Shown: positions 2,598 to 64,000 of the stretch, piece after piece
Layout of the letters: every line of letters starts with the position of its first letter
How positions within the stretch are numbered: position 1 is the first letter of the stretch
DNA from: Agelas oroides
Taxonomy: Eukaryota > Porifera > Demospongiae > Agelasida > Agelasidae
Reading direction: 5' to 3'
DNA: 64,000 bases
Assembly: GCA_949130485.1 (NCBI GenBank)
Contig: OX422189.1
Location: forward strand, 8,093,620 to 8,157,619
The notes under the pieces: generated by a model
What the model saw: the letters and a program-made list of their open reading frames with translations, nothing else
The model's database searches: none
Told to the model about the DNA's origin: nothing
Program-made: the position numbers and the translations under genes

Positions 2598-5500
2598 CTA
2601 TAGGAGAAAGTTCTAATTTACAGAGACAGATCACTGCTAGATTCCCCACCATAATTCTGCAATGAACAAAGCAACAAATATCTTACCGTAGAATTAATAA
2701 CTTACTTTAGGGTTGTAGAAAGGAGAGATCTTCCACCCACCAACCTCTCCCTTTTCAGGAATTGTAAGGGATACAAAGTCTTTTTCAAAACTGAAGATGA
2801 ATGAGAACTGTGGGTAGCCATGACAAGAGTACTCCTTTTTCACAACCTGTATGAAGTATGCACTGTATTAAAAAATGAATAGAATATGCATGCACTGCAT
2901 GTTAGTGCTTACAGTTGAGCAAGAGTCAAGATCCTTTGTGACAACGAAGTCCACCTTCCACTTATTGGCTGATTTGCGGGCAATGTAGAGTTGAGCACAA
3001 TATTGCACAACTCCCTTCTCTTTACCCTGCCCAGTTTGATAAGCTGTTTCACTTTGAGTTAACGATTGCTGTTGTTGCTGCTGCTGCTGTGAGTCAATGG
3101 CTTGCCCTGATGACTCAGATGACTGTTGTTGTTGCTGTTGTCGTTGCCCAAGCTCTGAGTCAATGGCCTGCCTTGATGCTGGTAGCACAGGTTGAACTCT
3201 GAAAAACCTTTGAACAAGTGGTCTAATAACTATGCCAATCCCAGAAAAGTGGGATAGAGATAAGCTACCATAGGAACTGTGGGGAGTGAAGACTCCTCCC
3301 ACTCGTTGTTTGAAGATGTAAGGAAGTTCCTTCTGGGTACACTTGGTGTGGACGAATGTAAGCTGTGAACATTGTTTATCACTAGAGAGTGCAGCACAGT
3401 GCTGTATCTCCACAGTGATGGGCTTCATGAACTTGTGAGGACTGGAGATCCAGTAGACTGCACTGACAAGTTCACAGTTGGAAGGCATCTGAAATGGGCC
3501 AGACAGACTAACTTGCACACTCAGCTGAGTTTCTGATACTTCTGCTGGTAAACTGTTTTTTGGAACACACAGCTTGAATCCATACCCCTCAAAATTAAGC
3601 TTGACTGCTTCTTGTGTGAGGGTAAATGTTTGTTTTGCAATCACTTCAACTCCTCGTATGTGTGCTGTAGTCAGAAAGACTGCAGTTCAAAACGTGTTCA
3701 TGAATGCTATTCAATGTGTTACGTACATCAAAACAATTAACAGTAAATATTATTAATATACAGGTACCTTGCTCCTGTGCTATAGTTTCAGTCTGAACTT
3801 GCTGATCTTTGATCTCTATAGTTTTTGTCTGTATGCTCTGGTGTTTCACCTCCACTTTGCCTGGGGCAGGGTGGAAAATATAAATACAATTCACATGGCA
3901 GTCCCATGCACCTATATATACTGCTTCACAAGTATCTACGAATGTTTTACATGCCATACACCAAATTTGTCTATAGCAAAAGTTTTTAGCTGACTCCTAA
4001 CTTAGGATTTGGCATCATGTCTAAAAAATTGGATATAATGCACTTGACAGAGCAATTCCACAGCAATCTGAGCATCTCAGAGGTGGCGTTAATGTGCAGC
4101 TGCTGCAAAAAGTGTTGCTATGTATTGTGTTGTGTGTTATAATGGCAAAAACATTTGAAAAAAAAATACTGGTAGTATTCAAAAAGGAATATAGAAGATT
4201 GTGAATTCCAAGACTATTCAGTCACTAACATTTCACAAAAAGCTCAGATAATTCTGCTGAGTTTGAATACATGTAGTGCACAACTACTGGTATATTATGT
4301 TTAACTTGTCTAGTTGTAAGCAACACCTTAGTGGCTACAACAGTCCATTAAACATGACAACTTTGTATGCTGATTTTGATGGTAAGTTGCTATCCATGTG
4401 TGAAACATGCTATAACAACTTTAAATCCAGGTAGGAACAGCTGTTATGACTCCTTGTAGATTTCATAACCATTTATGCTACTTTATGTGTCATGTACAAT
4501 ACATACAGCCACTGATGCAGAGTATTACCTAGTAGTAACATACCTTGCTCTTGTGCTCTAGTTTTTGCCTGGACATGCTGGTGTTTGATCTCCACAGTTT
4601 CTGTCTGCATGTTCTGGTCTTTCACCTTCACCTTGTCTGGGACAACTGCAGTGAACATATGAATCTCATGGTGGTAACTAAGGGCAGGATCACCTATTTT
4701 TACTTTCATGGATGTACAGCAACTTCAACAATCTCATTATTTTTAAAATGCAATGTACTTACATTTTTTTCATGTCAGGTATCGTGCCCAGAAGTGTCTG
4801 TTTAGAGTTAAAGTTTCAAACTCCCAAACTCCGGGTTTAATATTATGATCAACAACTGTACTTAACATATAACACTGCCTTGTAATAATGCTGTCATACA
4901 TAACACTGCATATAATAGTTAACTTTTTCAGCATTGAGCATGTGGAAATAGCACAATGGGCCAGAAAAAAGCACAGACCTACTTTCTGACAATACCTCCC
5001 AGCCTAGTAACGCGACCACTGCCTGTAAAAGATCTGGTTACAATACATACTGTCGTGTTGCAATCTGGCATGTGGAATGGCCAATCACAATGTAGTTAGA
5101 GCAACTATCAAGTTTGTTACCTATGATCAAAGTAAAATTAACTGTATAATTGAACACGTTGTTTTCAAAGATTGCCATCAGTAGGAAAACTGATCAAAAC
5201 AAACTACAGCACTATCAAAATTTGTAACATTTGTTTGTTTCATCTTACTGACTAACATGTATAGTGGTAAAGTACTTACGTAGCTACGCTGTATTTGACT
5301 TCCTGGGAACATCAAACTGACGCTTCCTTACCAAATTGCCAGCTTGCTTTATTCATTGGGATTATTTGTCTTTTCATTTCTCAGATGACTGATTGTAATT
5401 AAGAACTCCAGCACTTTTGTCATACCCCCAAAGGTGGAGCAGGATGTCATATCCTAACCAGCTCATCTTGTGTAGTGGTAAGTGCTCTGGGAACAAAGCT

Positions 5501-8500: not shown

Positions 8501-11500
8501 TCCTGCGGTGCAACTCTGAATGTGGACTTACCAGACTGTTTGAAATGTGTGGAAATTCGCTCCCACTGTTGCTTTGACGAAATCGAAAGATTGTACTACT
8601 CTGCATATCCTGAAGACATGCTTTGTATTCACTGTGGTGATACTGAGAACCTAGTTACTGACTTAGAAGAGGGAGCGTTTCCTTACTGCAAGGAATGTGA
8701 ATCTTAACCCAGAATCCACAAGAGGAAAAGCAACAAGAAAAAGCAGGACTAGACATGTATCTGTGAGTGCATATTTGGTACTGCTTATTTCACAAATCAT
8801 ACTGTACATTATACAGTGCAGTTTAGTTAGTGTGTGTATATACATGCATTTGTTGTTGGTATGATGTTTCCATTTTCTTGTGTGTACACCTTTACTCCTG
8901 CTGTGTTGGGTTTTTTTTATTGGTGGTTTGTAATGATTTCCTGTTTGTGGTTTTCTTATTTCCTGGCTGTTACATCATGTTTTTCCTGTATTTCCTGGCT
9001 GTTACATCATGTTTTTCCTGTATTTCATGGTGGTTTTCCTACGAAAATTTATAATGAATTATGAATAATGACCTCCCTCCCTCATGGAAAATAGAAAATT
9101 TGCTGACGATAAACTGTGAATCTACTTTGTGTGGCCCTAGCTACTATGTAATGACATGGATTTATGTTTTAAACCTCCCTTGATGTATCATTTAGGGAGG
9201 CTGTAGCCCCCTAGCGTCCATGGTTCTACTGCCCTTGTTGGTTGGTTTACATACTGGCGTTAGCCTATGCCTGATAGCAATACATAAGACCAGAGGGATA
9301 TATAACCTGTTATCTAGGCAACTCCACTGTACAACAGGAATATCTATGTGCTACATAGGTAACAGACTATACTGAATTATACCTTCTTTGCCATTGTATG
9401 CTTGACAAAGGGTCAGTTATGAATTAGCATGATAAAATAATCATCCAAGCACTAATAGTACATTATGCACATACCTGGGTCAGCCATGTCTCTGTGAAAT
9501 TTGCTCATTGGGTAGTCACCACCTACACTGTGCTGAAGTGGAGTCACAAACCTATGGTCTATACCAGTTGCACTTTCAATAGCTGTCCGTATTCTCTTGA
9601 TATCAGTTACCCTAGCACTTTCAATGTCAGCATTACACTCAAGTCTCAACCTCTTACGTCTGGTTAGATCCAGTCTCTCATCTGAAACTGGGTCAGGCAT
9701 GTCTCTGAGCAATCTGTTGATTGGGTAGCGATCATGATACTGCTGAAGTAGAGCCTGGGCTTCCTTGATATCAAACCTTTCAATGATATCCTCAAGGAGT
9801 CCAGTGTTCATGTAGTTGATGTCCTCTGGAACTAAGCATTTAATAACTTCAGAAACACTACTGGCATTTTGCAGAATATGCTGATCTATACAACGTATCT
9901 CTGGATTCAGAGGATGAGAGTAGAAGTGAAGAAACCGTAACAATGTTTCCAGCTTAACAGTTGTTTCTAGTATTTCTGTAATCCTGTCCAGTGCTATAGT
10001 AAAACAACAAATAATTCTCCTTTGTTCTCTGGAAAGTCGTCCTTTTAATGCTACAGTTGTACTACTTGACTCAGATGTTTCTTCACCTCTGCTATTTGAG
10101 TGCTTCTTAAAGTCTCTCATTTCAGCAGACAGCTGGGTTAGGGTACTAGTGTCAGCAACTCTTGGTGGCAACAGTGACCCTGTGAGTAAAACAATGCATT
10201 ACCCAGCAGTTGAAACTGTACTCATAGAACACAAACTTGCCAACCCGTGATAATGACTACTTGACCCTACGAGTGCTTACCCAGATCAAATGGGCATATG
10301 GAAAGCCGAAAATAGAAAATGGAAACAGAACCCAAGCCTGAAATGCTATACAGATTTCACTGTGCATAGTGAGTACAGAAGTATTATGTATGTACCAAAA
10401 CACCTGCTGTACCAGCTGTAACAACAGACATTCTGCATGTGCCATCAGAACCCCCCGTTAGGTGCTAATGGATACTTCCCATACAGAATGTGTTTTTATC
10501 CAGGTGCTGGTGGAGCAGGTACTTTGGTACACACCATGAATACTTCAGTACTCACTATGTAGAGTAAAGGCCTTGAGATCCAGCCTGGAAATTGAATAGT
10601 GCCTATGGATAAATACCTTCTTGAAAGAGTAAGTTAGCAAGCATAAAAGAAAGTCCTATTGGTATTATGGGTCTTGGTTTTCATTACAGAAGACTTTTTA
10701 TTTTGCAGAGTTTTTTCTCCGTTGGAGAAAGGAATAGATTGAGATTCAGCAAAGGATTGGAGCAAAGGATACTTATACTATTTGACACTGCATGCATGTC
10801 TTCTAACACTTTGTCAAACATCAGCAGTCTCCTTCATCACAGGTAAGGCTAATACCGGTTCTAGCTTCTATTTCTTACTTTTCCATATGCCCAGGTTAGA
10901 TTACTTATGGCATATCATGCTGTGATGACTAAACGACTACAATTTGCATGCATGCCATGCTCTTACCACAATAACAAATTTAATACAGTCTTAGTCTTGA
11001 CCATCACTGGGCACTTGGGTCTGTGTGTCAAGTGGCTGACTTCACCACTAGCAAACTTCCACATACATACATACATACATACATACATACATACGTATTT
11101 TAATACTGGAGCACCTCAATAGTAATTGGACTTGGATTTCTTGGTTGTTCTCAGGGCATGGGAGCATACGTAGCTCAATGGTCCCAGGAAAACCATGTTG
11201 GCAAGTATAAGAACATGTGGTACATTTCACTTACTTTATGTAGATTGAGAAATTTTGTCATATGCGACAGTTCTGTAACACATGTAATTCTTACTGTTCA
11301 AATATTTTATTCTGCAAAATTTCTCGATTTACTGTATGCCAAATCTTAGCGCTATAGATCATGTATTTTCATGCTATACGTAGCAGGTTGACACATGCAC
11401 GAAAACATAATGAACACAACATTTCCTAACTACACTTACGGTAGTGATCAGACATGGCATCAGCAATGTACACCAAGGATGGATCCCCTCTCACCACTGA

Positions 11501-14500
11501 CAGAAACTTGTGCAAAACAGAAGGGTTCGTCATTATCTGGTCCTTCACAGCAGCTAGTAGTTTAGATGTTTTCACATATGTTGATGGTCCTGTGATTTTC
11601 ATTGTTTCATCACGAACTTCTGGACTGATCAGATCTTGTGAGTAGAGCTCAAACGCCAGTCTCTCTGGGTGTGAAATGGACTCCACTAGTTTGTTGAAGT
11701 AAAGCTGAAAAACTTTTAGTTCAGGACTATACAGTGGGTCCTAAAGGGTGAACAGCATTACAGGCTGCATCAACATTACATGTGTAACCAAATCTATGTT
11801 TTGTGAAAGAATAAAAAAGAATTTGTTGCTAGTGTGATATGTCACCTAGCTGAGGCAGCTGTATTACACAGTAACCTGCTTCAAGTGGTCGAAGGTCAAA
11901 TGTGGATAACTGACTACCTACCTTCACAGGGCTTGCAAGTAGGCTTACACTAGCCTTGTGCTTAGCCTGTGTGCATCTCCCACAAGAAATGGTCTGGTGA
12001 ATGAAGTCAAAATTTTTTGGGCTGTTCCCAAAAGACCAATGAGATTGCAAGATCAGTAATTATTACATATATAGCACTTTCCTTACAATAGTAATTTTTT
12101 TTATCTCTACCCAGGTTTCCGTACCTTTTTTGAGCAGGTTTGGTGCAAAATGTTTTGAACGTTGCTAGGTTACACTGTCACAAAATGTGCACTAGCTCAA
12201 GAAATTTGACTTGGTTCACCAGACCGTTTTTTCTCATGAGAGGAAGGGGTCTGGGTACGAGACTAGGTTTACAAATGTGTTCTCATAAATGACATGAATC
12301 TATATTTAAGTGGGCACGCTGCAGAAGATGAACTCATGCATACGAGTTGTATGAATGCTAGGAATCTGTGAAAAAGGGTGAAAGAACTAGTTTCTGTATA
12401 GATGCTGTTCTTGAGTCTGTTGTCCGATGTATAATGACATATATATAAGGAGCACACATTTAACTGTCATGACACATGTAGCCTATAGTTCTTGTCACTG
12501 TGGGGGAGGTGTGAGTGAGACAATTATGTTACATCAAGAAATGTAAATTCTCACCAGTTTGCAACATAAGTGAACTCCATTTGAATACACAAAGTAACAC
12601 TAGCTATAGATTCAGTAAAGTGGAGCAACCAACCCTCTGATACACAGGATAATGTAACTACTAGCTTCCAAGGCTAAACAAAAAGTAATAACATACACTC
12701 ACTCCCAGGCCTTACACAGCTTACATGACAACATATTATACTCTACAAAGCAATCTCTTTTGTGCCTTAATTACTGGAAAGTAATAGTTGATTGCTGTTA
12801 ACCGTTTTCACATGATAACCCCATTTTCATCTCCTTTTTTATTGTATTGCACATTTGCATCCTTGATGCCTGTGTCAAAGCCTCAGTTCACTACGCCATT
12901 GGTCAAAGTGTACCTGTCATACTCTCTTCCTGGCCCTAACACTGCAGATGTGAATAAAGTGATAGAACCTACGTAGTATAATATTATAGGTTGTCGAGAG
13001 GCATTTCATTGAATCACTGCTCGCGTACGTTCATGTGCTATTGGGTGAAATTTAGATACATTGTACATATTGGGAAGGGGGAAGGTAACCTTGTAACCAT
13101 GTTCTTTTTTGTGGAGGGAGACACTGGTAACATTCGGGACTTGAAGCCACTACGTTATCATGTGATTTAGACTGAGCATGCCCCATGTGCATATGTTTTT
13201 TCATAATAGTTGGGGAGGAAGACAGACAAAAAGTAGCAGAAAGCATTAGTAGACATCAGGTAAATTGTATATAAGGCTGAAACCTTCAAGACTTGATAGT
13301 CAGGTAATCGCAGCATAAAGTACACAAAGCAGGTAAGCTTACAACTTATTCACGCAAATTTAAAGCTTTGCCAGCTGTCTCGGTCATCCTTTTCTTTTGC
13401 AACACTCTTGTGATCACTTCATGTCTTAAGGAACAATGTACTGGAATAAGTGAAGCCTGGCCGTATCTCCAATCTTGCTAATCTCTGAATTCAAGACACT
13501 TTATCAATGCTATAACACAGTGAAAGGAATGTTTCCTTGACGTCACTTTTTCTGTCACCTTTCCGTAGGCCACCGTCTAACACTAACATAGCTAACAAAA
13601 TGAGTTTATAACTCCTAGCTTATTTTTTAATGGTAATTTTGTTTGCCATCCATCCATGTGATTTTGTTCTGTAATGAACCTCTAAATGTTACCAGGCATT
13701 TTCTTCCAGCACCTGGAAAGAGTAAATATGGGGATGCCCCAACCCCAGTTGTTTGCCATTCAGGCCCTTGGCATCACCAAAATTTTAGCTACACTGCTGA
13801 CTTTGACAGAGATTGTCATTACCAAGTATGTAGACAGAATTCTTCACATTTCAACTCAAGGTATGCTGTCAACCAAGCAGATTATATGTCAAGGTATTTA
13901 TCCTTGGTGTTCACACCGCTATACCTGTGTGTGCAGGGGTGAGAGAGGAGAGTGAGTGATCACAGCAGCAGCTTGTGGTTCAGGAGAAGTGGGCTTGTCA
14001 GTAATGGAAAAAGGGTAAGGTGGAGTGGAGGTTGCTGGAGAAATGCAAATAAATTACAATGTAAGTATTGAACATAACTACCATATATAGATCTGGAAAT
14101 TTTTGCTGTTAAAATATTTTTGTCGCTCCGTCATGTATGCGCAAGCCAAAGTGATACTGTACACTGTAGATCGGGAAATTTTCGCGCTAAAAACAATTCG
14201 CGTCTTGAATTTTCATGTTAAAAATATTTTGCCACTTGACGTTTCTGCAATGTAGTACGTATTTCATGTTTTAATTCTTTGTGCGTTTAATTTTTGTCAC
14301 AGCAGCGTGAAAATTTCCCGATCTACAGTGTACAGTATCACTTTGGCTTGCGCATACACTCTTGCATGACAGGTCACTGTGGGTATAGGCTCAGATACTG
14401 GTGAAGGTGGAAAGACATTGGTCTCAGGATGGCTACCTTCCGTCCTGTTACCTTGGCAGTATTTTGCCTCGAGAACAGCAGCCAAATGACTTGCTCCCAC

Positions 14501-17500
14501 CATTCGACTCCTGAGAGCATCAATAAGACTCCTCCAGCTGGGATTGTCACCAGTGGTCAACCATGCTTTAAGCATCTCTCGGAGCTGGTGTTTGGGGTAA
14601 CTGAAATCTGCCCGGATGTTGTCCAGTGTTCCAATTCCCACTTTGAGCTTGAGTCCAAGGTCGTACCAATCTTGAGACACATCCAGAATCTCCCCCAGCA
14701 CACAACCAAGGTCATCTGATGACAGTTTGTTCCCTGAGAAAGAAGTAAAACATTTTGGTAATACACTTTACAAGCAACTTAATGCATCTGCAACTGTTTT
14801 AACACCTAATCTGGGAAAAACCTGCATGCACGTACATATATCGCTGCAAAAACAGATTTGTTATACATATTTCCATAGCAAATGAGTGAACAGTGCCAAA
14901 TAACAGACACAATCCATTGCTAAGGTATGAAGAGAGCCTGGTTACATGTAAGAATGCTGTACTGTGCTTCACTAATGCATGGGTAAACATTATTTTCTAC
15001 CATGTAGTGACTACATCATATACATGTAAATGTCATACCGTATGACTGAAAAATTTGGCGGAAATTTAAACTTGGTGAATTGCGATGTACAAAAGATTTT
15101 AATTTGGCGGTTTCCCTACGAGCCAGCGTAGCATGACGTCCTGCTAATGCACATGCTAAACAGACGTATGCCACATGTGTGCGAATGAGTAGTAGCTGTA
15201 ACACTAGCCAGCTGGTGTGAAATCAAACGCATTGGAAATGGAGCTGACAATTGACAGTTGTGTGTACAAGGCCATCATGTCTACAAGAGCACATGGACAC
15301 CAAGTATTGTACTTCTCTTTCTGTGAGGGAGGAGACCTTTGTGGGAAATCCTGGACAAAATTACTTGAGCAACACCATAGTCTAATCCACTTGACATTAT
15401 AGTTTACGCTTGCCTTGCGATTGATCAACAGTGTCAACTGAATGACATGTCATTCCCAGACACTTTGGGGCCCAATTCGATATTTTTAGTTTGGTGGTTC
15501 ACTTATCCAACCACCTATCCGCCAAACTTAATTCTCCGCCAAATATTTCAGCCATAGGGTAAATTTTATGATTTGTGCAAGGAGGACTGGACTTCCAGTT
15601 GTACCGTATATACAGTTGTACCGTATATACGTATAACTGGAAACATTGGCAGTCTGCAAATTTGGTGGTTTAGCCCCAAACTGAGCATAAAAAATATTGG
15701 CGGTGGCACCTCAGCAGCGTATTACATCATCATAAACATTGCATGCTCGTTCATCAGGAAGCATTGCCTTCATCTTGCTTGAGGTACTTAAACAAAGCCG
15801 TGAGTTTGCAAATACAACTGGCAGCATACTAGTGTTGAGCTAGCTACATGTACAGCTCACATAGAAGGGGGGCTGGGCAGGGTCAAGAGCGCTACTGCAC
15901 GCATTACATCATTACGCATTGTGGGCGAAAATAATATAGGCGGATTTTATGGGTGGGGCATTATGACTTGAATGGGTGGGGCTTTATGGCAAAGTGAGTT
16001 ACTGTTTTGGGGGATATGCTAAAAAAACGCTGGTCTTCAGGGGAGTACCCTTTCCGATCATCGCATGACCACAGGTTTTGGTCCTTTTGAACTCCCCGAC
16101 GCCATGGCCTATACTACAGAAGGGGTGGGACCATGCACTCCCTGTCTAAGGCCTGTTTTGAGGAAGCAGACTTTTGGTTAGCATTCACAGTGCTATGAGT
16201 ATACAAAAAACTAAACAAATTGGGGGTGGGGCTCAATGGGTGGAGTTATCATAATATTAGTTAGGGGATGGGATGGGCAAACCAACATTCGAACCCTCGT
16301 CTCGTCCTGGTGGGGCATCTGCGATGCTTATTGCTTGACAGTAAGTGTTCCTGTGCCAAAGATTCTTTCGCTGGACATTCGGGTCTGCACTGTGGCAACT
16401 TTCTCGCGGTAAGTATACTAGTTTGTGTGTGAGACGCTGTCGACGGGCTTTAAATGGGAGCATGCTTCCCTTAGTAACGGTGTACCTATCCTAGAAAGGG
16501 CGTGTTTACGCTAGTTATGGTGTTTGCTTTGCTATAATAATGGTATGCCTAGGGTATACTTGGTTCTGTAAGGCTGGGCTAGGGCTAGGGTTGGGCTGGG
16601 GCTACTCAGTGTTCTGTGAGCCAGTGTGAGGCTCACTCACAGTTACACTATCGTCGTGAATTACAGGTGTGAGGCTCACTCACACTTGAATTACCACTGT
16701 GAGGTAGCCTCGTTCCCCAAGCCCCACCCAGCTTTCTGTCGCTTGCAGTGCGGAAAGCGACAGAAAGCTGGGCAGGGCCTGGGAACGAGGCTAACTGTGA
16801 GGCTCACTCACAGTTACATTACAAATGTGAGGCTCACTCAGTTACACTACGGGTGTGAGGCTCACTCACATTCACATTATGAGTGTGAGGGTCACTCATA
16901 CTTCAGTTACCACTGTGAGGCTCATGCACTCACAGTTACAATATGGGTGTGAGGCTCACTCACATTTACATTACAAAGATTCTTTCACTGGACATTCGGG
17001 TCTGTACTGTGGCAACTTTCTCGTGGTAAGTATACTAGTTTGTGTGAGACGCCGTCGATGGGAGTGTGCTTCTCTTAATAACGGCGTACCTATCCAACAG
17101 CATGTTTATGCTAGTTATGGTGTGTGCTTTGCTATAGTAATGGTACACCTAGGGTATAGTTGGCTCTGTAAGGTTGGGCTAGGGCTAGGGTTGGGTTGGA
17201 GCTACTCAGTGTTCTCCGTAAGGCTCACTCACAGTTACACTATTGTCGTTAATTGCAGGTGTGAGGCTCACTCAGGCTTGAATTACCACTGTGAGGCTCA
17301 CTCACATTTACATTACAAGTGTGAGGCTCACTCATACTTCAGTTACCACAGTGAAGTTACACTATGAGTGTGAGGCACACTCACGAGGAACGAGGCTAGC
17401 AAAAGCAGGATCTAGAACTGTGAGGATTTTGGAATATTCCATCATAGTTTCATGGTTGGTTGTAGGATGGTGGTCACGAGAGGTTTATTTTAGCACTACA

Positions 17501-20059
17501 AACTAATCACAGAAGACAATGTAAGAGATCATCTAACAACCATATATCGTATAGCAGGAAATTTTCGAATGATGCAATTTTCGTATATTTTGAATGCTCG
17601 CTCCGTATTCGAAAATAAAAACTGCGAAAATTTGAACGGCACGGGCAGCTGCAGTGTGAGGTGCTAACAATGTCTCTGTACAGCTACTTTGCAGAGGCTT
17701 CGAAACGGAGGGACCTTCCCAATCCCAATGGATCGCTATCGGCATCAGTTAGCCCTGCCACGATAAAAGAAGCTAATGAAGCTGTAAAGAGTGTGACAAG
17801 TGAGGGAAAGAGCAAGCGGAGAGGGAGTTACGCTAAGACCACTACAAATTGGATAATAGTTTCCCATCCACCGCCCGCATGCCCTTCATGAGCCCGCCTA
17901 ATATTTTTATTATTGTAGTAATCTTCTATTATAGCGAATTATGACGTTATCTATTCAAAATTATTTACGGTCTAGTCCATGTGCTTGAGCAGTACTGTAC
18001 AGTACAGTGCTATTGCAGTGGAGGTTGTCTACTTTCTTTCGCTTTTTCGGGCCTTGCTGTGTGTAGCATGTACAGCTGTTGGAGGTTTGTATGTATACAA
18101 GACACTTAGTGACCATGTTTTAGTATTTTGTGGTTTGTATTTCCTTTACCACATCCGTAATGAATAATAAAAAAAACACCGCCTGCATGCTATTGCATCC
18201 TTAGCCAGGACGGGGAAACTATTATCCAATTTGTAGTGGCCTAAGTTCTCACCTGAGCAGGAAGCTGCAATCGGCAAGTATGCCTCTCTCACCATCGCTT
18301 CCACTGAGAAAGATGCCATCTTCGATTGAACCTGGGTATCATCTTTTTGTATGCTCGTGGAATATTAGCAATGGGCGTGTCCTACTTGGCCGGCCATTGA
18401 ACGTACGCGTGCAGTGGATCATGCGAAATTTAAAACTACGAAAATTTATTCTCAAGGTATTTTGGTCAATTATACGAAAATATGCACCAACGAAAATTTC
18501 CCGCTATACGGTAATCCTCAGATCTACATGAGCATTTGTGAGGGGGTCACCTGCTACTATCAACCATATTGAAACAGTTGTTCTGCCTAACAGACGATCT
18601 AGGATTATCAGTATATGTGGCTAGGTTTGAGAAATGTGACCATGCACTTCTCGCAAAATTTTACTTAGATGTACATGTATGATGTTTAACTAGATTCCTT
18701 TTGACACTTCACTAGCTGCTTTGTTTCCTGCGCTGAAGCAAACACATACATGTATGCAGATGATGGTTTCCAGATAATAGCAACTAGCTACGAACCATTT
18801 CCCATACTTGTTGGCTGTAAACTATTGTTACAAGGGCTTGTTAGTGCTGTCCACATACTCTGTGCAAGTGCATGGAAGATTTTATTTTGTTTCCTTGATG
18901 GTCTCATGCACTTGGTGCGAAGGAAGTTATGTCTGGAGTTCAAAGTTGGCCAGAAGGTAGGGGAAACCCCATACACATTGTAATAACCTGAGTTTACCGG
19001 ATGACTATTTATGACTTACGTATACTGAAGATTTACTTCATGCACAAAGTGGTCACTTTTCTCAAAGTGTATCAGATACAAGTATACCAAAACTTTAACT
19101 TCTCAAGCACTACATGTGGCAGTCCCGGGTAGAATTAGAACATTATTCCGTTGCGTATTTTGACCACGTTACCGCACTGTAGCGCAGAACTTCCATTAAG
19201 GGTGGGCCTCATACGCGCTACGTAGGCTTATCAGGTATTCATGCATCTGCGCATGCTATACTTCACCAAAGATTATTACAATGATGCTATGCGTAAACGG
19301 ATGTAGTTAATGCGGCATGCACGAGCTACACCATGCTGATGGTGACATGATGCAAAACTTCGGTAAATCCGGAAACACTTGAAAAAGCGCCCAAAATGTA
19401 GGTGCTCCATCCATGGGCACTCTTTTGCAAAACTACAGTAAAACCATATAACTGTTTTTAAGCTCTCATGCATGGTGGTTAGGGTGCCGAAAACTAGTGG
19501 CTTTGATGATGATGACATTATGCATATGATAAAATGTACCCTGTCCTTTCCTCTTTTGCAGTATAAGGAAGCTTGGCTACATCCTTACATACTCACCAAA
19601 TGGCCCTGGATTCAGCTCTATATCTCCACTCATCAGTAGCAGTAGAACAACCACTGCCCCCACAACAACCTTCCCTACACCTGAGGGAATGCTGAGAACT
19701 GGGCTGCAGGAAACATGGCAGACACTGGGATGGGACGATGAGCATGACAGACACCAAATGTTTGACTTCAGTACTCCATTCTGGAGTACCATGGCTGGCA
19801 GTATGTTGTTGAGGGATGGTAGCATCAGAGGGGTGTGTTTGAAAGTTGTGTGATGTGGGTAGATACAACACTGGTCCACAGGGTTCATGTGGTCCCTACT
19901 AGCTACTTGCATATGTTCAGCTACCATCACCAACATTGATAGCATGAAAATGCACACAGCCAGAAGAATGGCATGGTCAGGAGTTACATGTACATGATCC
20001 AGTTGGTACAGGAACCGAGGGTTAATGAAGTGAGGTTGTAACCTTCGAAAGGATCTCAT
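2370..20059 (-). CDS. Ten-exon gene: 2A leader, Death domain, CARD-like domain, ZU5 domain protein
   Basis: Seen: ten minus-strand exons (20059-19597, 14733-14437, 14034-13925, 11740-11440, 10179-9475, 4636-4544, 3860-3768, 3664-2913, 2846-2706, 2597-2370). Each intron starts GT and ends AG, and phase is continuous at all nine junctions, giving 3183 nt or 1060 residues plus stop. Order of parts: hydrophobic leader with a 2A motif (1-153), Death domain (about 157-247), Pro-rich linker (254-290), CARD-like bundle (291-390), second helical region (391-625), duplicated repeat exons (626-687), ZU5 (about 700-800), poly-Q (863-887), conserved-looking tail (939-1060). Known: Death and CARD folds mediate homotypic assembly in apoptosis and innate immunity, and ZU5 occurs with Death domains in UNC5, ankyrin and PIDD proteins. 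Inference: a sponge-type immune or cell-death adaptor. No NACHT, kinase or caspase domain was found. The last exon may splice onward at 2435 instead of reading to the stop. Confidence 0.72.
2706..2846 (-). CDS. Exon 9
   Basis: A 141-nt phase 0-0 exon between acceptor CTTCATACAG and donor AAA|GTAAGT. It codes for 47 residues ending GEVGGWKISPFYNPK. This reads as the tail region that follows ZU5 in sponge proteins of this type, judged from memory of the family and not from a search. The strong donor and open frame support a real exon. Confidence 0.72.
2913..3664 (-). CDS. Exon 8: ZU5 domain plus poly-Q segment
   Basis: A 752-nt exon that starts in phase 1 after GACTACAG and ends ACT|GTAAGC. 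The ZU5 domain is recognised by EAVKLNFEGYGFKLCVPKNS, then a block reading VYWISSPHKFMKPITVEIQH and a Ser/Phe-rich strand (YGSLSLSHFSG). ZU5 is a beta-sandwich seen in UNC5, ankyrin and PIDD, where it controls Death-domain exposure or carries autoprocessing sites. I do not see the PIDD-type HFS dipeptide cleavage context with certainty. An HFSG does occur in the last strand, which is worth noting because PIDD and UNC5CL self-cleave at HF|S. Two Gln runs follow at 3066-3140. Confidence 0.78.
3066..3140 (-). repeat. CAG-type poly-Gln tracts in exon 8
   Basis: Two runs of six and eight glutamines are separated by a short Ser/Glu spacer. A duplicated QAIDS motif precedes each run. On the plus strand this is seen as CTG/TTG triplets. 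Length is likely to vary among alleles. Confidence 0.85.
3768..3860 (-). CDS. Exon 7, tandem duplicate of exon 6
   Basis: A 93-nt symmetric phase 1-1 exon (acceptor TGCCCCAG, donor GAGCAAG|GTACCT) coding KVEVKHQSIQTKTIEIKDQQ and then VQTETIAQEQ. It holds two copies of a 12-residue unit. It has the same length, phase and ending (AQEQ) as exon 6, so it arose by exon duplication. Confidence 0.75.
4544..4636 (-). CDS. Exon 6, tandem duplicate of exon 7
   Basis: A 93-nt symmetric phase 1-1 exon (acceptor TTGTCCCAG, donor GAGCAAG|GTATGT) coding KVKVKDQNMQTETVEIKHQH and then VQAKTRAQEQ. Alternating hydrophobic and charged residues with regular Gln suggest an extended beta-like or coiled linker. Because it is symmetric it can be skipped or included without a frameshift, so alternative splicing is plausible. 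Confidence 0.75.
4800..5867. other. Intron 5, proximal part: nothing recognised
   Basis: The longest frame (5417-5764, plus) has no recognisable motif and no coding character. I see no repeat with clear ends here. Confidence 0.4.
5868..6244. mobile_element. TIR element, TAC-GTA / AATTTTCG-ended family
   Basis: The left end TACCGCAGATTAGGAAATTT is matched in inverted form by the right end (AAATTTCCAATCTACGGTA). The element is 377 bp and has no ORF. The TA at each edge fits a TA target, as in Tc1/mariner-type elements. Related ends occur at 14.1, 15.0, 17.5 and 28.3 kb. Confidence 0.6.
6534..7001 (+). CDS. Possible exon or transposon-derived ORF with duplicated LLxAAxExxED motif
   Basis: An open frame, possibly entered through a splice acceptor at TGCTTTGGTAG (about 6601). 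It codes DSVLLAAIEQFED followed by NRLLIAALEKYED, an imperfect repeat of one amphipathic helix, then an acidic/Lys-rich stretch. The 3' half looks like non-coding readthrough. Similar short helix motifs occur at the N termini of sponge transposon proteins, but I cannot assign a family. It lies in intron 5 of the minus-strand gene. Confidence 0.3.
   Translation: MHHCDATDPTCGIFIFSVTALVVWMFLNEATIDSVLLAAIEQFEDQTTNRLLIAALEKYEDSGTTQKEDVKKTPAKTLPSTLTKHCMFTICIFVVNDHNKQIGNVKVENIKLNISSQVCSITQNIESYACFQEKYYKVCIARAVVNESVSLCVIV
7091..7200. repeat. Foldback of about 110 bp
   Basis: Outer arms of about 20 nt (ATATAACCCACCTAGATACG against CGTATCTAGGTGGATTATAT) and inner arms (TTGATGGTTAAAACACTA against its complement) flank a short loop. 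No ORF. A MITE or a strong hairpin. Confidence 0.75.
7297..7765 (+). repeat. Dispersed repeat, direct copy of 27858-28323
   Basis: Both copies carry AAAATGGCGTATAGC near the start, TTTGAATCGTTGTAATAGC in the middle and a palindromic end ATGGCGTACTACCGTACGCC. The 28 kb copy lies inside the 4 kb Harbinger-like element. Confidence 0.75.
8522..8707 (+). CDS. Cys-rich C-terminal fragment of an element-encoded protein
   Basis: The frame codes three CxxC pairs (CLKC, CIHC, CKEC) plus CC in about 60 residues before a stop, a zinc-ribbon-like spacing. Its place inside TIR element A suggests it is the tail of an element-encoded protein. The upstream frame (8221-8454) is in another phase and unrecognised. 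It has no convincing start of its own. Confidence 0.35.
   Translation: MDLPDCLKCVEIRSHCCFDEIERLYYSAYPEDMLCIHCGDTENLVTDLEEGAFPYCKECES
8959..9022 (+). repeat. Two-copy tandem repeat, about 32 bp
   Basis: TTTCCTGGCTGTTACATCAT and its following T-rich stretch occur twice in a row inside TIR element A. Confidence 0.8.
9475..10179 (-). CDS. Exon 5: helical domain
   Basis: A 705-nt exon, phase 1-1 (acceptor TTACTCACAG, donor CCAG|GTATGT). The region RRIICCFTIALDRITEILET through ALLQQYHDRYP reads as an all-helical module with NTGLLEDIIERFDIKEAQAL near its end. This resembles the helical segment next to Death/CARD domains in sponge NLR-like and adaptor proteins (inference from pattern, not a search). 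A Lys/Arg-rich stretch (DLTRRKRLRLE) follows. RDMPDP and RDMADP recur about 60 residues apart. Confidence 0.72.
11060..11093 (+). repeat. (CATA)n microsatellite
   Basis: About eight CATA units in intron 4 of the minus-strand gene. Confidence 0.95.
11440..11740 (-). CDS. Exon 4: CARD-like domain
   Basis: A 301-nt exon with acceptor ACCCTTTAG and donor CTACC|GTAAGTG. It codes DPLYSPELKVFQLYFNKLVE, then a helical bundle with LISPEVRDETMKITG and SKLLAAVKDQIMTNPSVLHK. The Asp-Pro-Leu opening, the I-S-P-E-V turn and the run of amphipathic helices are typical of the CARD-like Death-fold module found in sponge multi-domain proteins. CARDs bind other CARDs in signalling complexes. An earlier reading with the acceptor at TTTTTCAG would drop 12 residues. 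The longer form is preferred because the opening motif is then complete. Confidence 0.75.
12110..12270 (+). repeat. Dispersed repeat shared with about 39110-39255
   Basis: Both copies share AAAATGTTTTGAAC, TTGACTTGGTTCAC-like and AGACCGTTTTT blocks in the same order and orientation. Non-coding. Confidence 0.65.
13710..13860 (+). CDS. Possible lone exon with Alba-like residue pattern, antisense inside intron 3
   Basis: A 151-nt open segment lies between a strong acceptor (TTTTCTTCCAG) and a consensus donor (CAAG|GTATGC). It codes AIQALGITKILATLLTLTEI in its middle, followed by a beta-like VDRILHIST. This matches the order of landmarks in eukaryotic Alba-like proteins (xLSALGxAIxxxVTVxEIL then xxKIxTST). 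I found neither an upstream exon with the RNA-binding N-terminal strand nor a downstream one. It may be a captured, degenerate or retroposed fragment. Confidence 0.35.
13925..14034 (-). CDS. Exon 3: Pro-rich linker
   Basis: A 110-nt exon (acceptor ATTTCTCCAG, donor ACACACAG|GTATAG). Only one frame is open and it matches the flanking phases (1 to 0). It codes a Pro/Ser/Thr-rich linker (TSTPPYPF and further) between the Death and CARD-like domains. Confidence 0.65.
14134..14358. mobile_element. Palindromic TIR element, 225 bp
   Basis: Arms of about 52 nt start TGTATGCGCAAGCCAAAGTG and include GATCGGGAAATTTTCGC, with the exact complement at the right edge. It lies in intron 2 just beyond the proposed exon 2 donor, and open-frame readthrough from exon 2 runs into it. 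It shares the GGGAAATTTTCG core with the 5.9 and 17.5 kb elements. Confidence 0.75.
14437..14733 (-). CDS. Exon 2: Death domain
   Basis: A 297-nt exon, acceptor TTCTTTCTCAG, proposed donor GAAG|GTAGCC. The split Gly codon joins exon 1 in frame. It codes SSDDLGCVLGEILDVSQDWY, then DLGLKLKVGIGTLDNIRADF, then LREMLKAWL and WRSLIDALRS. The pattern of six amphipathic helices with the W-x-x-L-G-x-x-L-x-(V/I) core and the L-x-x-M-L-x-x-W-L helix is a clear Death domain. The exon end is the weakest call: the frame stays open downstream through a Pro-rich stretch, so a longer isoform is possible. Confidence 0.8.
15036..15561. mobile_element. TIR element, 526 bp
   Basis: The left end TACCGTATGACTGAAAAATT plus TGGCGG is mirrored by CCGCCAAATATTTCAGCCATAGGGTA at the right, with TA at both edges. 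A 61-residue frame inside (15217-15402) is not recognised. Confidence 0.65.
16619..16965 (+). repeat. Minisatellite of TGTGAGGCTCACTCAC units
   Basis: Irregular 20-30 bp units, each with the near-palindrome GTGAGGCTCAC and a variable AT-rich spacer (TTACATTAC, TTACACTAC and others). A second array is at 17218-17392, and inverted arrays are at 62938-63290. One Mutator-like miniature element is inserted at 16705-16793. Confidence 0.85.
16705..16793. mobile_element. Mutator-like miniature palindrome with perfect 9-bp target duplication
   Basis: Starts TAGCCTCGTTCCCC and ends GGGAACGAGGCTA, with inner arms CAGCTTTCTGTCGCTT against the complement. ACTGTGAGG flanks both sides (16696-16704 and 16794-16802). 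Because the target is a satellite unit, check that the flanks are a duplication and not two satellite copies. Other family members show the same 9-bp length. Confidence 0.8.
17670..18329 (+). pseudogene. Transposase-like N-terminal ORF, disrupted by insertion
   Basis: ATG at 17670 begins MSLYSYFAEASKRRDLPNPN, followed by GSLSASVSPATIKEANEAV and a basic KRRGSYAK. This is the N-terminal signature (SYF..., LPxPxGxLSxSxxxxxIxxAN, basic patch, then FSPEQEAAIGKYA) of transposon proteins common in sponges and cnidarians. Element B splits the frame between GSYAK and FSPEQ. The second half resumes at 18245 and stops at 18329 (CAIFD-like end), so the copy is also truncated downstream. It was an N-terminal fragment before or after the insertion. 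Confidence 0.6.
17837..18241. mobile_element. PIF/Harbinger-like TIR element B
   Basis: TIRs GACCACTACAAATTGGATAA and continuing, mirrored to GTGGCC at 18241. Target duplication TAA at 17834-17836 and 18242-18244. CCGCCCGCATGC inside the left end and CCGCCTGCATGC inside the right end. No ORF. It sits within the 17545-18513 element. Confidence 0.8.
18530..19560. other. Intron 1, distal part: nothing recognised
   Basis: The short frames here have no motif, and no repeat with clear ends was noticed. Confidence 0.4.
19597..20059 (-). CDS. Exon 1: membrane/leader region ending in a 2A motif
   Basis: ATG at 20059 opens 154 codons. A first hydrophobic segment spans about residues 30-47 (AILLAVCIFMLSMLVMVA). 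A second, GKVVVGAVVVLLLLM, at about 129-143, runs straight into SGDIELNPGP (144-153). The donor is CCATTTG|GTGAGT and is phase 1, matching exon 2. An internal start (for example Met90) would give a shorter leader like the 2A leaders known from sea-urchin NLR proteins. No TATA box was noticed upstream. The middle of the exon (Cys/His/Pro-rich) resembles nothing I know. Confidence 0.68.
19601..19630 (-). other. 2A (StopGo) ribosome-skipping motif
   Basis: The ten codons SGDIELNPGP match the strict 2A core D(V/I)ExNPGP. In known 2As the bond between the last Gly and Pro is not made, and translation continues from Pro. The preceding Leu-rich stretch fits the helix expected in the exit tunnel. The skip point would be Gly152/Pro153. 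Confidence 0.85.
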
Positions 20060-42086: not shown

Positions 42087-42094
42087 TATAAAAG
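42087..42094 (+). promoter_or_regulatory. TATA box
   Basis: TATAAAAG, 95 bp upstream of the ATG at 42182. Confidence 0.65.
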
Positions 42095-42181
42095 AGCTTA
42101 GCGTTAGCTAGCTTGTCATTCACCAGCAAACTCTCTGACCAACTCAAGAAGAAACTACAAGACAAAGAGAACCCGGTCAAA

Positions 42182-43114
42182 ATGGAGAAGAGACTGGTTG
42201 TACTGCTACTGTGCTGTGCTGGAGCCCTCGTTGCTGAGAGCATGCCAACAGAGGAGCAGCAGAAGGTTCTTGAACTGCTGCAGCAAGAACTTGCCGATGC
42301 TAGGGCCAGCCATTTTCCTGTGGAACAGGGAATCCGCAATCAGCAAATCCGCAATCAGCAAATAGAAAATGCAGAAGAACAGCAAATATTGAATGCAAAA
42401 GAACAAAGGATGCACTTTCCCACCAATCCTGTGGAACAGGGAATCCGCAATCAGCAAATCGAAAATGCGATAAAACAACAAATCGAAGAACAAAGGATCC
42501 ACTTTCCCACCAATCCTGTGGAACAGGGAATCCGCAATCAGCAAATCGAAAATGCAAAAGAACAACAATCAACTAACAGTGGTGTCGTCTACACACGCTG
42601 GGGAAGCACTGAATGCCCTACGACTGCCACACTTGTCTACTTTGGAAGAGCTGGTGGAGCCCACTACAGTCACTCAGGTACAGCTGCTAACTACATCTGC
42701 ATGCCACACACCCCGGAATATTACAGCTCCACTAAAAAAGCAACTTATGCAGCACTTGTCTACGGGTCAGAGTACGAAACATGGGGCAGCCCACTAGCTA
42801 ATCTTGCCAACCACAATGTCCCCTGTGCTGTGTGCTATGCAGAACGAAATGCAATGATAATGGCTCCAGCCAAGATCACTTGCCCAAGCCAGTGGACACG
42901 AGAGTACAACGGCTACCTCATGGCTGCATACTATGGCCATGCCTCACCCAAAAATTTTGTATGCGTGGACCTAGATGCACAGCCAGTGCGTGGTGAGGCA
43001 AAGAATACTGACGGTGCCTTCTTTTGCCATGCCAGGCTTGGTAATTGCCACGGCTTAGACTGCCCCCCCTATGATACAAAGAAAGACCTAGCATGTGTCG
43101 TGTGCACAAGGTAG
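42182..43114 (+). CDS. Secreted protein with short-chain collagen C4 / spongin-type C-terminal domain
   Basis: 310 residues in one exon. Met at 42182 is chosen because a signal peptide follows (MEKRLVVLLLCCAGALVAES). The frame is open upstream but has no ATG there. Residues about 20-45 are Glu/Gln-rich. Residues 46-130 are tandem NPVEQGIRNQQIENA-type repeats. The C-terminal domain, about 134-310, opens GVVYTRWGSTECP and includes GGAHYSHSG, VPCAVCYAERNAM, WTREYNGYLMA and a final LACVVCTR, with eleven Cys. This is the conserved non-collagenous domain of sponge short-chain (spongin) collagens. Unlike those, there is no Gly-X-Y tract; the polar repeats take its place. Inference: an extracellular matrix or lectin-like protein. 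It may compensate by coiled-coil trimerisation. Confidence 0.85.
   Translation: MEKRLVVLLLCCAGALVAESMPTEEQQKVLELLQQELADARASHFPVEQGIRNQQIRNQQIENAEEQQILNAKEQRMHFPTNPVEQGIRNQQIENAIKQQIEEQRIHFPTNPVEQGIRNQQIENAKEQQSTNSGVVYTRWGSTECPTTATLVYFGRAGGAHYSHSGTAANYICMPHTPEYYSSTKKATYAALVYGSEYETWGSPLANLANHNVPCAVCYAERNAMIMAPAKITCPSQWTREYNGYLMAAYYGHASPKNFVCVDLDAQPVRGEAKNTDGAFFCHARLGNCHGLDCPPYDTKKDLACVVCTR
42310..42570 (+). repeat. In-frame repeats in the spongin-like gene
   Basis: Units of about 60-80 bp share GTGGAACAGGGAATCCGCAA and CAAATCGAAAATGC, coding NPVEQGIRNQQIENA, with two shorter IRNQQ/IENA repeats at the start. Copies are near-identical, so copy number may vary. Confidence 0.85.
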
Positions 43115-44943: not shown

Positions 44944-45249
44944 TTATGAGTATGCATACTGTGCCCTTCTACATAGGGCTTTGTCAATGAACCTTGAGAA
45001 TGAGCTTGAATCTGTATAGAGTTCATACAGAGAATGCAAGAGACTACATTTAAAAACAGGTGTGTCAGATAAAAATTTGCCTATATACAGTGTTGGTAGG
45101 AAAAACGACTTTCCGTTTTTTAGTGTTGGCCTCGCCAAAATCTTGCTGCAGCGTTCTAAGAGTTTTTGCTGCAACTCCTCTAATGGCATGCTCTTAGCGA
45201 TAAGAGCTCCAGCACAGCACAGTAGCAGTACAACCAGTCCCTTCTCCAT
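44944..45249 (-). pseudogene. Truncated spongin-like copy 3, minus strand
   Basis: Met at 45249 codes MEKGLVVLLLCCAGALIAKS and LEELQQKLLERCSKILA, the same signal peptide and pro-segment as the intact gene. No repeats and no C-terminal domain follow; the frame diverges and stops after 101 residues. Its 5' leader is cut by a TAGTCTTG palindromic element at 45273-45321. Confidence 0.7.
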
Positions 45250-45272
45250 TTTAATTTTCTCTGTTTTGTGAC

Positions 45273-45321
45273 TAGTCTTGCAAAGCCAGACTTGGTGTGA
45301 AAGTCTGGCTTTGCGAGACTA
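45273..45321. mobile_element. Miniature palindrome in the leader of copy 3
   Basis: TAGTCTTGCAAAGCCAGACT and the mirrored AGTCTGGCTTTGCGAGACTA, 49 bp. The flanks TTTTGTGAC and TTTTCCAAC agree only partly. Confidence 0.75.
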
Positions 45322-54899: not shown

Positions 54900-57150
54900 C
54901 TATAGCTACCGGTAGCTATGCCTCACCCTACAACAGCCCCCAAGATCATTTGGGAGAAGGCCAGGAAACGAACTCCCTGCATGCTTACCAGGAGTCTGTG
55001 TCTACTATCATCACTCCACTCCTTGGTAAATTGTACGACAGATCAGAGCAGCTCATTGATGAGATTTGTCTAGTGTCTCAACAGTTACTCACTGCTGGAC
55101 AGAAGACACTCTATGTGAGGTTCCGAAAAGAAGGTGGAAGTGGTATAAGGACCAAGCTCTAGCCCGCCTTGCCGCACGCAAGAAAGCTGCCTGGGACACA
55201 GTGATCGCCCCACTGAAGGCCCTCTCTATATGAAGAGAAAATCAAAACCCGCGCTGGGTTCAGGAAAAGAATGAATATCTGTGCTGCTAATGAAGAGAAG
55301 AAAAGGTTCAACTCTTTGACCGGAGGTTCAAGCAGAAAACCTCAAACCGCTTTAAGACATCTAAGGCAAGCCGCCAGGGGACCATGCTGAGGGTGGACCA
55401 ACATGTAACATTCTGACTCAGATACCATCCTAACCACCTGGGAGAAACATTTCAAAGACCTCGGTAGGTCCAGGGAAGAACAGTTTCCAGTCCTGTCTGG
55501 CACTAAGAAGCAAGTAGACCAGTTTTTAAGGAAATAGTGCTGGATGTTGCTCCAAGGAGATTGATGGTGCCCTGAGGAAACTAAAATCGGGCAAGTCTCC
55601 AGGTCACGACTTGCTGCAACCTGAACACCTCAAGCATGGTGGTGAAGTACTAAAAATCTGGATCCAGCAAGTCTGCAATGCTGTTGTAGAACTTGAAAGC
55701 GTGCCTGACTCACTGAAGCTAGGAATTGTGACCCCCATTTACAAAGGGGGTGGAAAGGATCCTCTTGACACCAACAGCTACTGAGGGATCACCCTCACAC
55801 CAGTGCTTGCCAAAATGCTTGAGTCCTTGATCCTTGATCGCCTCCGAGATGTGCTGCTGGGAAAAGGGATACTTCATCTCAATCAAACTGGCTATACCGG
55901 AGGAAAGTTTCATGTGTGGAGGCCATCTTCTTGACCATGGAAGCTGTCTTACAATTTGCCCAGCATGTACATGTGCTTTTACGACCTCCAAAAACCCTTT
56001 GATTCGGTGCAATACCCTGGCACTAGCGGCCTGGAGGCTAATAAGAGACTGGTACAATCATCCTAGGAGCGGAGTGAGAGTTGGTGGTCAACTATCAGCT
56101 AAATTCATTCTTGAACGTGGTGTTCTCCAGGGGTCAGTTCAATCACCAGTCCTCTTCCTACTAGTCATGGACCCTCTACTCAGAGAACTAGAGCATAGTA
56201 GTCTTGGCCCCTCTGTCTATGGCACCTATGCCAGCACCTTTGCTCACGCTGATGACATACGAACAGTAACCAGCAGCCTTCCTTCACTACAACAACAGAT
56301 CCATATGGTGCAAAACTTTGCCATAGAGAATGCTCTGGCACTGAATCCAGCCAAGTGTGAAGTCCTGATTGTCTCCCCTTCCAAACTGGCATCTCCAACA
56401 CCTGTCTGCACCATTGCTGACCAGTCACTTCTCCCGAAAGAGAATGTAAAGTGCCTCGGATACTGGTGGTCTTGGGATCTCTCAGCCACCAAGGCTGTTG
56501 ACGAAGCCATCAAGCAAGCCAGGAGGGCCTTCTTCGCCTATGGGACAATGGGAGCCTTCCAAGGAAAATTAAACCCTCTCTCAGGCAAAACCATCTTCGA
56601 CACATGTGTTGTTCCCATCTTACTATTCAGAAGTAAGAACTGGATACTGACTGATTCCCAACTTGACCATCTAGAAGCCTTTCAGGGAGAAATTGGCAGA
56701 AGGATTCTAAGGCTCTCCAAATCCCACTCCACCCTAGCCATTAGAGTCGCTCTCAAATCACCCTCAGTCGCAGCCAGAATTTTAACCAGAAAACTGAACC
56801 TCCTTCCAAGGTCAGCTCCGAAGGGGAGTCTATTGGCTGTCGTATGTACACATCTCTGGCAGTTGCTAACCCTCAGTCTCTCAGACTCATACAGGAATAC
56901 CTATCACTGGAGAACAAGCTCGACTGTCACGGTGCGACCAATCTATAGTCTTTAAAGCCGATAACAATCCTCAAGGTCAACGGGGTATCAAGAAGTTGAT
57001 CCTCGATACTGACTGGAAAGCCGATCTCAGTGAAGCATGTCAACACCAGAGCACATCCCTTGCTGCCAAAATCGCCACCCACACCACCTGGCTGATCTGT
57101 GAACACGTTCTCGGCGTGAGGTTCAAAGGTTAATGCATAAGAAGCCAACA
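54900..57150 (+). pseudogene. Decayed non-LTR retrotransposon reverse transcriptase
   Basis: Fragments in several frames line up as one RT: YKGGGKDPLDTNSY followed by a stop then GITLTPVLAKMLESLILDRL (about 55738-55840), a Gly-Phe/Thr-Gly block in a shifted frame, then GVLQGSVQSPVLFLLVMDPL and FAHADDIRTVTSSL (YADD replaced by HADD, about 56118-56265), then a thumb-like LNPAKCEVLIVSPSK and a C-terminal tail to about 57130. The longest continuous piece is 55834-56955 (373 codons). Upstream, 54920-55560 has RT-linker-like helices. Several stops and frameshifts show it is dead. No intact endonuclease was found, so it is 5'-truncated. Motif order fits LINE-type elements, not retroviruses. Confidence 0.75.
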
Positions 57151-62934: not shown

Positions 62935-64000
62935 CCTAACACACTCACACTCGTAATTTAAAATGCGAATGAGCTTCACACCCATAACGTAACTGTAGTA
63001 ACTCAAGTGTGAATGAGCTTCAGACTCGTAACGTAACTGTGAGTGAACCTCACAGTAGTAACTCAAGTGTGAGTGAGCCTCACACTCGTAATTTTTAATG
63101 TGAATGAGCTTCACACTCGTAACATAACGGTGAATGAGCCTCACAGTGGTAACTCAAGTGTGAATGAGCTTCACACCCATAGCGTCACTGTGAGTGAGCC
63201 TCACAGTAGTAACTCAAGTGTGAGTGAGCCTCACACTCGTAATTTTTAATGTGAATGAGCTTCACACTGTGAGTGAGCCTCGCAGATAACACAGAGCAGC
63301 CCCAACCCCTAGCTCAGCCTTATGGAACCGACTACAGCCCTAGGCGTACCGTTACTATAGTAAAGCACACGCCATAACTAGCGTAACAATGCCGTTACTA
63401 GGATAGGTACGCCGTTACTAAGAGAAGCACGCTCCCATTTAAAGCCCGTCGACCGAGTATCACACACAAACAACTAATAATACTCACCGTGAGATGGTCG
63501 CCGCAGTACAGACCCGAATTATCTTCGGTACAGGAGCGCCTACCAGCGAAGAACAAGCCTCCCAGACGTTCCACCAAGACGACACGATAGCGAGCCAGAA
63601 TCCCGTACGTTAACCGTTCGCCCATCCCCCTAGTTATTATAAGTTAATATAACTCCACCCATTGAGCCCCACCCCCAATTTGTTTAGTAATTTGAATATT
63701 TATAGCACTGTGAATGCCCATAGCACTATGTGCCAACCAAAAGCTGGGCTCCTCAAAGCAAACCTTAGGCGGGGAGTGGTCCCGCCCTTTCTGTAGTAGG
63801 CCAAGGGTCGGGAGTTCAAAGGGACCGAAACCCGTGGCCATGCGAGGACCGGAAAGGGTACTCCCCTGAAGACCAGTATTTTTTGAGCATATCTCCCAAA
63901 ACAGTAACTAACCGCCCCATCCATTTAAGTCATAAATACCACACCCATTTAAGCCATAAAATGCCCCACCCATTTAAGCCATAAAATGCCCCATCCATCT
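62935..64000 (-). repeat. Inverted copy of the 15.9-17.4 kb composite repeat
   Basis: It begins with an array of GTGAGCCTCACA units (62938-63290), then a segment with GCCTTATGGAACC, GTACGCCGTTACTA and CCCATTTAAAGCCCGTCGAC. It ends in GCCCCACCCATTTAAGCC repeats that run off the window edge. Confidence 0.8.

Follow-up and report, generated by a model that had tools for sequence, protein, structure and literature searches.

The closest described precedent for the locus studied here comes from the sea urchin Strongylocentrotus purpuratus, in which, according to passages of Roulston et al. (2016, PMC4981915), NLR proteins (SpNLR) carry N-terminal 2A ribosome-skipping sequences of 26 residues. We analysed a 64-kb stretch of the genome of the sponge Agelas oroides (GCA_949130485.1; contig C7, positions 8093620-8157619; hereafter the window), where a minus-strand exon, exon 1, encodes a leader ending in a 2A motif and is followed by an exon encoding a Death domain. 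In both systems a 2A stands at the N-terminus, or close to it, of Death-domain proteins of innate immunity, in a signal-like hydrophobic context and with the logic of dual targeting. Unlike the short sea-urchin 2A, which serves as the signal itself, the Agelas 2A terminates a leader of 153 residues that occupies its own exon and has a separate upstream hydrophobic segment as putative signal. Furthermore, the sea-urchin proteins are NLRs, whereas Agelas leaders precede Death genes whose other parts vary (NACHT-LRR, CARD-like, ankyrin, ZU5). The novelty of the Agelas family is provisional. Exon 1 probably forms the 5' leader of an immune-type gene headed by a 2A, in which skipping would release a free cytosolic Death protein and failed skipping would leave an anchored form.

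A second point of comparison is the LLLLSG-like class of StopGo/2A sequences, to which passages of Li et al. (2026, PMC12846837) assign their motifs 2 and 6, two L-rich motifs. Shared with this class are the D(V/I)ExNPGP core, with Asp first, and the hexapeptide LLLMSG or LLLLSG. Their sequences come from RNA viruses, whereas the Agelas sequences form a multicopy cellular gene family.

Exon 1 starts with an ATG at 20059 and reads openly to NPGP, giving 153 residues with the C-terminal end LLLLMSGDIELNPGP. The last Pro codon (residue 153) ends at 19601, followed by TTTG (19600-19597) and GTGAGT (19596-19591); rereading the sequence confirmed the claim of an initial annotation that the 2A codons end four bases before this donor. 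On the acceptor side, TTTCTCAG stands directly before 14733, so that the spliced reading is ...SGDIELNPGPFGNKLSSDDLG... with the split codon G/GG, and the phase-1 junction to the Death exon proposed in the same annotation is likewise correct. The features of this part of the window are as follows.

19597..20059, minus strand: exon 1, 153-residue leader with terminal 2A, then F and the first base of G; one of 67 strong genome matches.
19913..19972, minus strand: first hydrophobic stretch, residues 30-49, resembling a signal or an anchor, placed by a hydropathy peak and a helix in a low-confidence model.
19631..19669, minus strand: second hydrophobic stretch, residues 131-143, adjoining the 2A on its N-terminal side, placed by hydropathy and a helix in the same low-confidence model.
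19601..19624, minus strand: 2A core DIELNPGP, identified by its core motif, expected skip between G152 and P153.
14734..19596, minus strand: predicted intron 1, phase 1; its GTRAG position is common to 37 of 41 leaders, the other four being intronless.
14359..14733, minus strand: exon 2, Death domain (PF00531, Pfam E value 4.6e-7), end predicted; a homologue was found by tblastn in 42 of the 49 loci L009-L057.

DIELNPGP (19601-19624) conforms to the StopGo/2A core (D/G/C/N)(V/I)ExNPGP, its upstream hexapeptide LLLMSG is a recognised one, and coding continues in frame past the Pro, by a predicted splice here and without interruption in paralogues. A core codon pattern of the D(V/I)ExNPGP type occurs only once within the window.

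For comparison, 41 leaders were chosen by leader homology or by proximity to a Death exon, with extraction anchored on the NPGP codons, which are therefore present in all 41. In four of them, L035 (contig C1), L036 and L037 (both C2) and L038 (C11), the 2A and the Death region follow each other in a single open frame. Because these frames are contiguous, the 2A-Death frame is settled without splicing, which supports the annotation's placing of the 2A in frame with the Death domain. Of the three fusions scanned with Pfam, L037 and L038 have a Death score over the cut-off, and that of L035 lies just under it. In the remaining 37 leaders GTRAG follows four bases past the NPGP codons. A weaker second leader class (L029-L031, L034) has a donor-like GT at another place or of another form. 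In L030 (C3) and L034 (C10), a Met that precedes DVERNPGP by 27 residues, with hydrophobic sequence in the interval, is a candidate start, and the frame is open further upstream; this leader length is akin to that of the short sea-urchin 2As, and a Death frame was found in L030, not in L034.

The assembly from which the window is taken (259.3 Mb, 141 contigs) was searched in six frames with the exon-1 protein, giving 126 matches at an E value of 10 or less. Among them, 67, exon 1 included, reached 3.9e-8 or better (strong leaders), and 65 of these had no internal stop; the other 59 are called weak. Many leaders cluster on C9, C1, C11 and C2. The codon pattern GAYRTNGARNNNAAYCCNGGNCC, standing for D(V/I/M)ExNPGP with Met also admitted in the V/I place, occurred 285 times in the genome versus 0 for the reversed pattern, and 0.25 occurrences per genome would be expected by chance under a single-base model. 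Positions were taken for the first 100 of the 285, among them all 86 on C1. On C1, 20 of the 21 strong leaders had the core, and 52 of the 86 cores lay at most 10 kb upstream of a Death exon. Exon 1 thus belongs to a large, partly tandem family of 2A leaders, and the lone adaptor described at first has become one among dozens of paralogues, some of NLR type. A region of 0.95 Mb, C1:4146346-5095709, holds 32 2A cores on the same strand; the copy sampled there, L029, has 2A, Death and ankyrin.

Pairing of leaders with Death exons was scored within 10 kb, using the best 150 of 746 candidates found with the Death exon as query. A Death exon lay downstream on the same strand of 55/67 strong leaders, upstream of 2/67 and downstream on the other strand of 0/67; the corresponding counts for weak leaders were 22/59, 2/59 and 0/59. 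Seen from the Death exons, 93 of the 150 had a listed 2A at most 10 kb upstream and 57 had none, 2A positions being complete for C1 alone. These 57, together with the fact that the junction between exon 1 and exon 2 is a prediction from sequence, would suit a gene that normally starts elsewhere, exon 1 being unused or an alternative first exon. The kept donor position in 37/37 intron-bearing leaders and the four intronless fusions speak against such an arrangement, and we consider it improbable.

Selection on the leader is strongest at its end. In the 41 leaders, the pooled ratio of nonsynonymous to synonymous differences (pN/pS) was 0.12 for the 2A decapeptide SGDxExNPGP versus 0.58 for the leader, and 0.17 for the 2A when the four anchored columns were left out. 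Eight of the 16 near-invariant columns fall in the last 10 of 153 (hypergeometric 8e-8); without the anchored columns, 4 of 12 fall in 6 of 149 (hypergeometric 3e-4). The core was canonical in 40/41 leaders. The 2A is the most constrained part of the leader, and constraint extends to residues 30-49 and 75-105. For residues 106-130, positive selection within the C9/C10 clade was considered and dropped (pN/pS 1.77, not significant).

A similar picture was obtained for 240 database relatives, made up of the best 120 of 271 from one search and the best 120 of 172 from another. D(V/I)ExNPGP was present in 210 of them, and in 208 of these 210 the hexapeptide ended in SG (LLLMSG in 111, LLLLSG in 81). 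In one relative, P0040, the core reads DLE; for 26 others the scan showed no leader 2A end, and most of these resemble Death-only pieces. More than 50 residues follow the core in 16 of the 100 canonical database entries listed. One of the 16, P0241, matches the L037 frame with 100% identity, which places the same genome, or one nearly identical to it, in that protein database; some of the others apparently read through short introns. In GTDB species genomes and IMG/VR, stretches of the pattern were present, none of which was confirmed by tblastn. Since the hexapeptides match the LLLLSG-like class, whose motif 6 was active in reticulocyte lysate according to passages of Li et al. (2026, PMC12846837), ribosome skipping at the 2A of exon 1 is likely by analogy.

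A 2A also heads mobile elements, and the initial annotation had itself named membership of a retrotransposon as one of the outcomes that would undo its reading of exon 1. The genome does contain a 2A-led mobile element: L033 (C1:10533700-10537600) has an open frame of 1299 residues in which PHD, DUF6570 and Helitron-like domains come after the 2A leader LLLLLCGDIETNPGP, so that 2As of gene leaders and of mobile-element heads coexist in this genome. Passages of Roulston et al. (2016, PMC4981915) report the same split between genes and elements in sea urchin, there with elements lacking long terminal repeats (non-LTR). In L032, Cys-rich frames follow a pair of cores, and the frame scanned gave no Pfam hit. 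The leader of exon 1 could accordingly be pictured as a functionless relic of such an element. The elements, non-LTR in the literature and Helitron-like in L033, share with it an L-rich stretch and a core near the frame start, whereas element domains rather than a Death exon come after their 2A, and the leaders seem unrelated by inspection. The purifying constraint on the 2A, the near absence of internal stops in strong copies, the leader position kept before Death exons and the four in-frame fusions all oppose a relic, which we regard as most improbable. Membership of a retrotransposon was not borne out, and this reading of exon 1 is disfavoured by the Death pairing, the fusions and the constraint: a Death exon, not a reverse transcriptase or endonuclease frame, follows the 2A. 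Elsewhere in the window, on the plus strand opposite to exon 1, 55831-56955 holds a reverse transcriptase fragment (PF00078, E value 3.2e-14), the one reverse transcriptase match among the 7 window frames scanned. Genome-wide, a search for RVT_1 gave 2738 candidates, of which 150 were scored; they play no part in the argument.

With exon 1 as the leader of a Death gene, the order of frames in the window is Death, a CARD-like frame, a conserved frame without a name, and ZU5. Exon 2 has three possible donors, the alternatives lying after 14452 or 14399, and the ends of later exons are uncertain.

11429..11740, minus strand: open frame with CARD-like fold by structure model, exon ends uncertain; 70-83% identical frames in 5 of the 49 loci.
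9452..10198, minus strand: open frame of a conserved region without a name, exon ends uncertain; homologues in 13 of the 49 loci.
2868..3686, minus strand: ZU5 open frame (PF00791 match at 2871-3686, Pfam E value 2.8e-6); compare L055, with 2A, Death and ZU5 inside 4.4 kb.

Pfam gave no hit for the frame at 11429-11740, and none that was significant for the conserved frame at 9452-10198. The former was modelled as a six-helix bundle with a predicted local distance difference test score (pLDDT) of 92.7, and the top Foldseek matches in the PDB were CARDs (NOD1, caspase-1, Apaf-1; best E value 0.1, probability 1.00), none reaching an E value of 0.001. As modelled, it is a death-fold bundle nearest to CARDs, at fold level only. 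The CARD-like and ZU5 frames previously proposed downstream are thus supported, the first by fold and the second by Pfam, and the ZU5 frame would belong to the same gene as exon 1 and the Death exon. A NACHT-LRR region of the SpNLR kind was not seen in the window; a NACHT remnant was rejected, as three paralogue NACHT frames used as tblastn queries found no match there.

Paralogues showed more variety. Downstream of leaders, Pfam detected NACHT in L009, L019 and L028, NACHT with LRR in L026, ankyrin repeats in L029 and L056 (the latter downstream of the L045 leader) and ZU5 in L055 and L057. In L028 the NACHT comes after a second Death-like frame and could therefore belong to a neighbour gene; L055 is the nearest ZU5 analogue. 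Within 20 kb of the 126 leaders, NACHT lay downstream of 8 versus upstream of 3 (best 105 of 314 candidates scored), and ZU5 downstream of 5 versus upstream of 1 (80 matches). By itself this genome-wide pairing is weak, and the domain order rests on individual loci. One database protein, P0343, has a kinase domain and then a Death region of the same type, without a 2A leader.

The hydropathy of the leader, in windows of 19 residues, peaks at residues 29-47 (2.59) and 131-149 (2.31), and both peaks exceeded 1.6 in 34/41 leaders. The structure model has helices at residues 15-20, 27-57 and 128-143. The following course is the most probable. The ribosome would make the leader, with its signal-like segment, a variable stretch of about 80 residues and the hydrophobic segment, and would then reach LLLLMSGDIELNPG followed by P. 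Usually the bond to Pro would be skipped, so that the leader comes free as a small protein, secreted or membrane-bound, and the ribosome continues into a cytosolic Death/CARD-like/ZU5 protein starting with Pro. After a failed skip, the second hydrophobic segment could anchor the product, and the result would be a single-pass membrane protein with the Death protein as its cytosolic tail. The sequences themselves show the family, the frame, the 2A constraint and the domain order; transcription, skipping, targeting to the endoplasmic reticulum (ER), topology and the two-product switch are what we infer from them. The earlier reading as leader plus adaptor gained from the 2A constraint and the upstream hydrophobic segments; its "short" leader did not hold, as there are 153 residues with a second hydrophobic stretch adjoining the 2A.

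The 2A might instead be a plain separator, with near-complete skipping. The leader would then be a small protein in its own right, secreted or in the membrane and co-produced with the Death protein, and the unskipped form would have no role. This reading is quite possible, if short of probable. The canonical core with an upstream class that tested active (Li et al. 2026, PMC12846837) would fit it, as would leader constraint outside the 2A (residues 30-49 and 75-105), as though the leader had its own task. It sits less well with a hydrophobic segment placed where the anchor of the fusion would be, or with the finding, in passages of de Felipe et al. (2010, PMC2978324), that some residues upstream of a 2A inhibit skipping on passage into the ER, though not in vitro. 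Because of this ER effect, a leader of the exon 1 kind could be tunable.

Several observations weigh against the switch between a free and an anchored Death protein, or against the leader assignment beneath it. The gene and its products are known here from DNA alone, and the leader model is poor (pLDDT 52.7). The first hydropathy peak was under 1.6 in L038, L039 and L052, and the second narrowly so in L028, L046, L048 and L049. The core of L024 is DLE, three database leaders have broken cores (NPGH, NPWP, NQGP), and in 17 close C9/C10 copies the core pN/pS was 0.60, not significant, with an interval spanning zero. In the L055 leader the N-terminal part is out of the 2A frame. Finally, with the best 150 of 746 Death candidates, 12/67 strong leaders had no Death match in 10 kb, and the weak ones with a match were the 22/59 given above.

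Other parts of the window hold two related frames on opposite strands, 42092-43114 (plus) and 44944-45318 (minus), both of the form MEK.LVVLLLCCAGAL...; repeats of the NPVEQGIRNQQIEN type occur in the first, whose Cys-rich C-terminal part gave no significant Pfam hit. Units of about 30 bp, similar to one another and rich in GTGAGTGAGCCTCACA-like sequence, are tandemly repeated at 16796-17354, inside intron 1, and at 62998-63268. Rfam gave no matches in the window at gathering thresholds.

Among the matches listed in open-licence literature, judged mainly by titles and the beginnings of abstracts, no description of 2A in sponge genes was found; Rao et al. (2025), who surveyed 2As of viruses and cells, and Odon et al. 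(2013) may contain cases. The terms 'sponge', 'Amphimedon' and 'Porifera' are absent from the main text of Roulston et al. (2016, PMC4981915), and where passages of PMC5009743 refer to sponges and to StopGo, they do so in different contexts. Two candidate reports were rejected: '2a-like' is part of another protein name in PMC5890393, and 'npgp' stands for NPGPx in PMC9925728.

In passages of Li et al. (2026, PMC12846837), 2A recoding in cellular genes is called rare, to which one animal genome with 285 core patterns forms a contrast. The family provides a natural set of related leaders for studying the effect on skipping of a chain on its way into the ER. It also bears on the putative membrane-bound sponge NLRs of Dysidea avara, which according to passages of PMC12909245 likewise combine NLR architectures with predicted transmembrane segments; the terms 'skipping', 'ribosom' and '2a-like' do not occur in the text of that paper. 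A 2A leader would alter the interpretation of transmembrane predictions for such proteins, and the Agelas family offers a test of how they might be membrane-bound and cytosolic at once. More tentatively, these genes may represent an early-animal immune superfamily that uses the 2A as a translational topology switch. Each mRNA would then give two products, a single-pass membrane protein whose ectodomain is variable and whose Death tail lies in the cytosol, and a soluble cytosolic sensor or adaptor, in a ratio set by translocon engagement and translation stress, with related leaders serving NLR-type, ankyrin and ZU5 genes alike.

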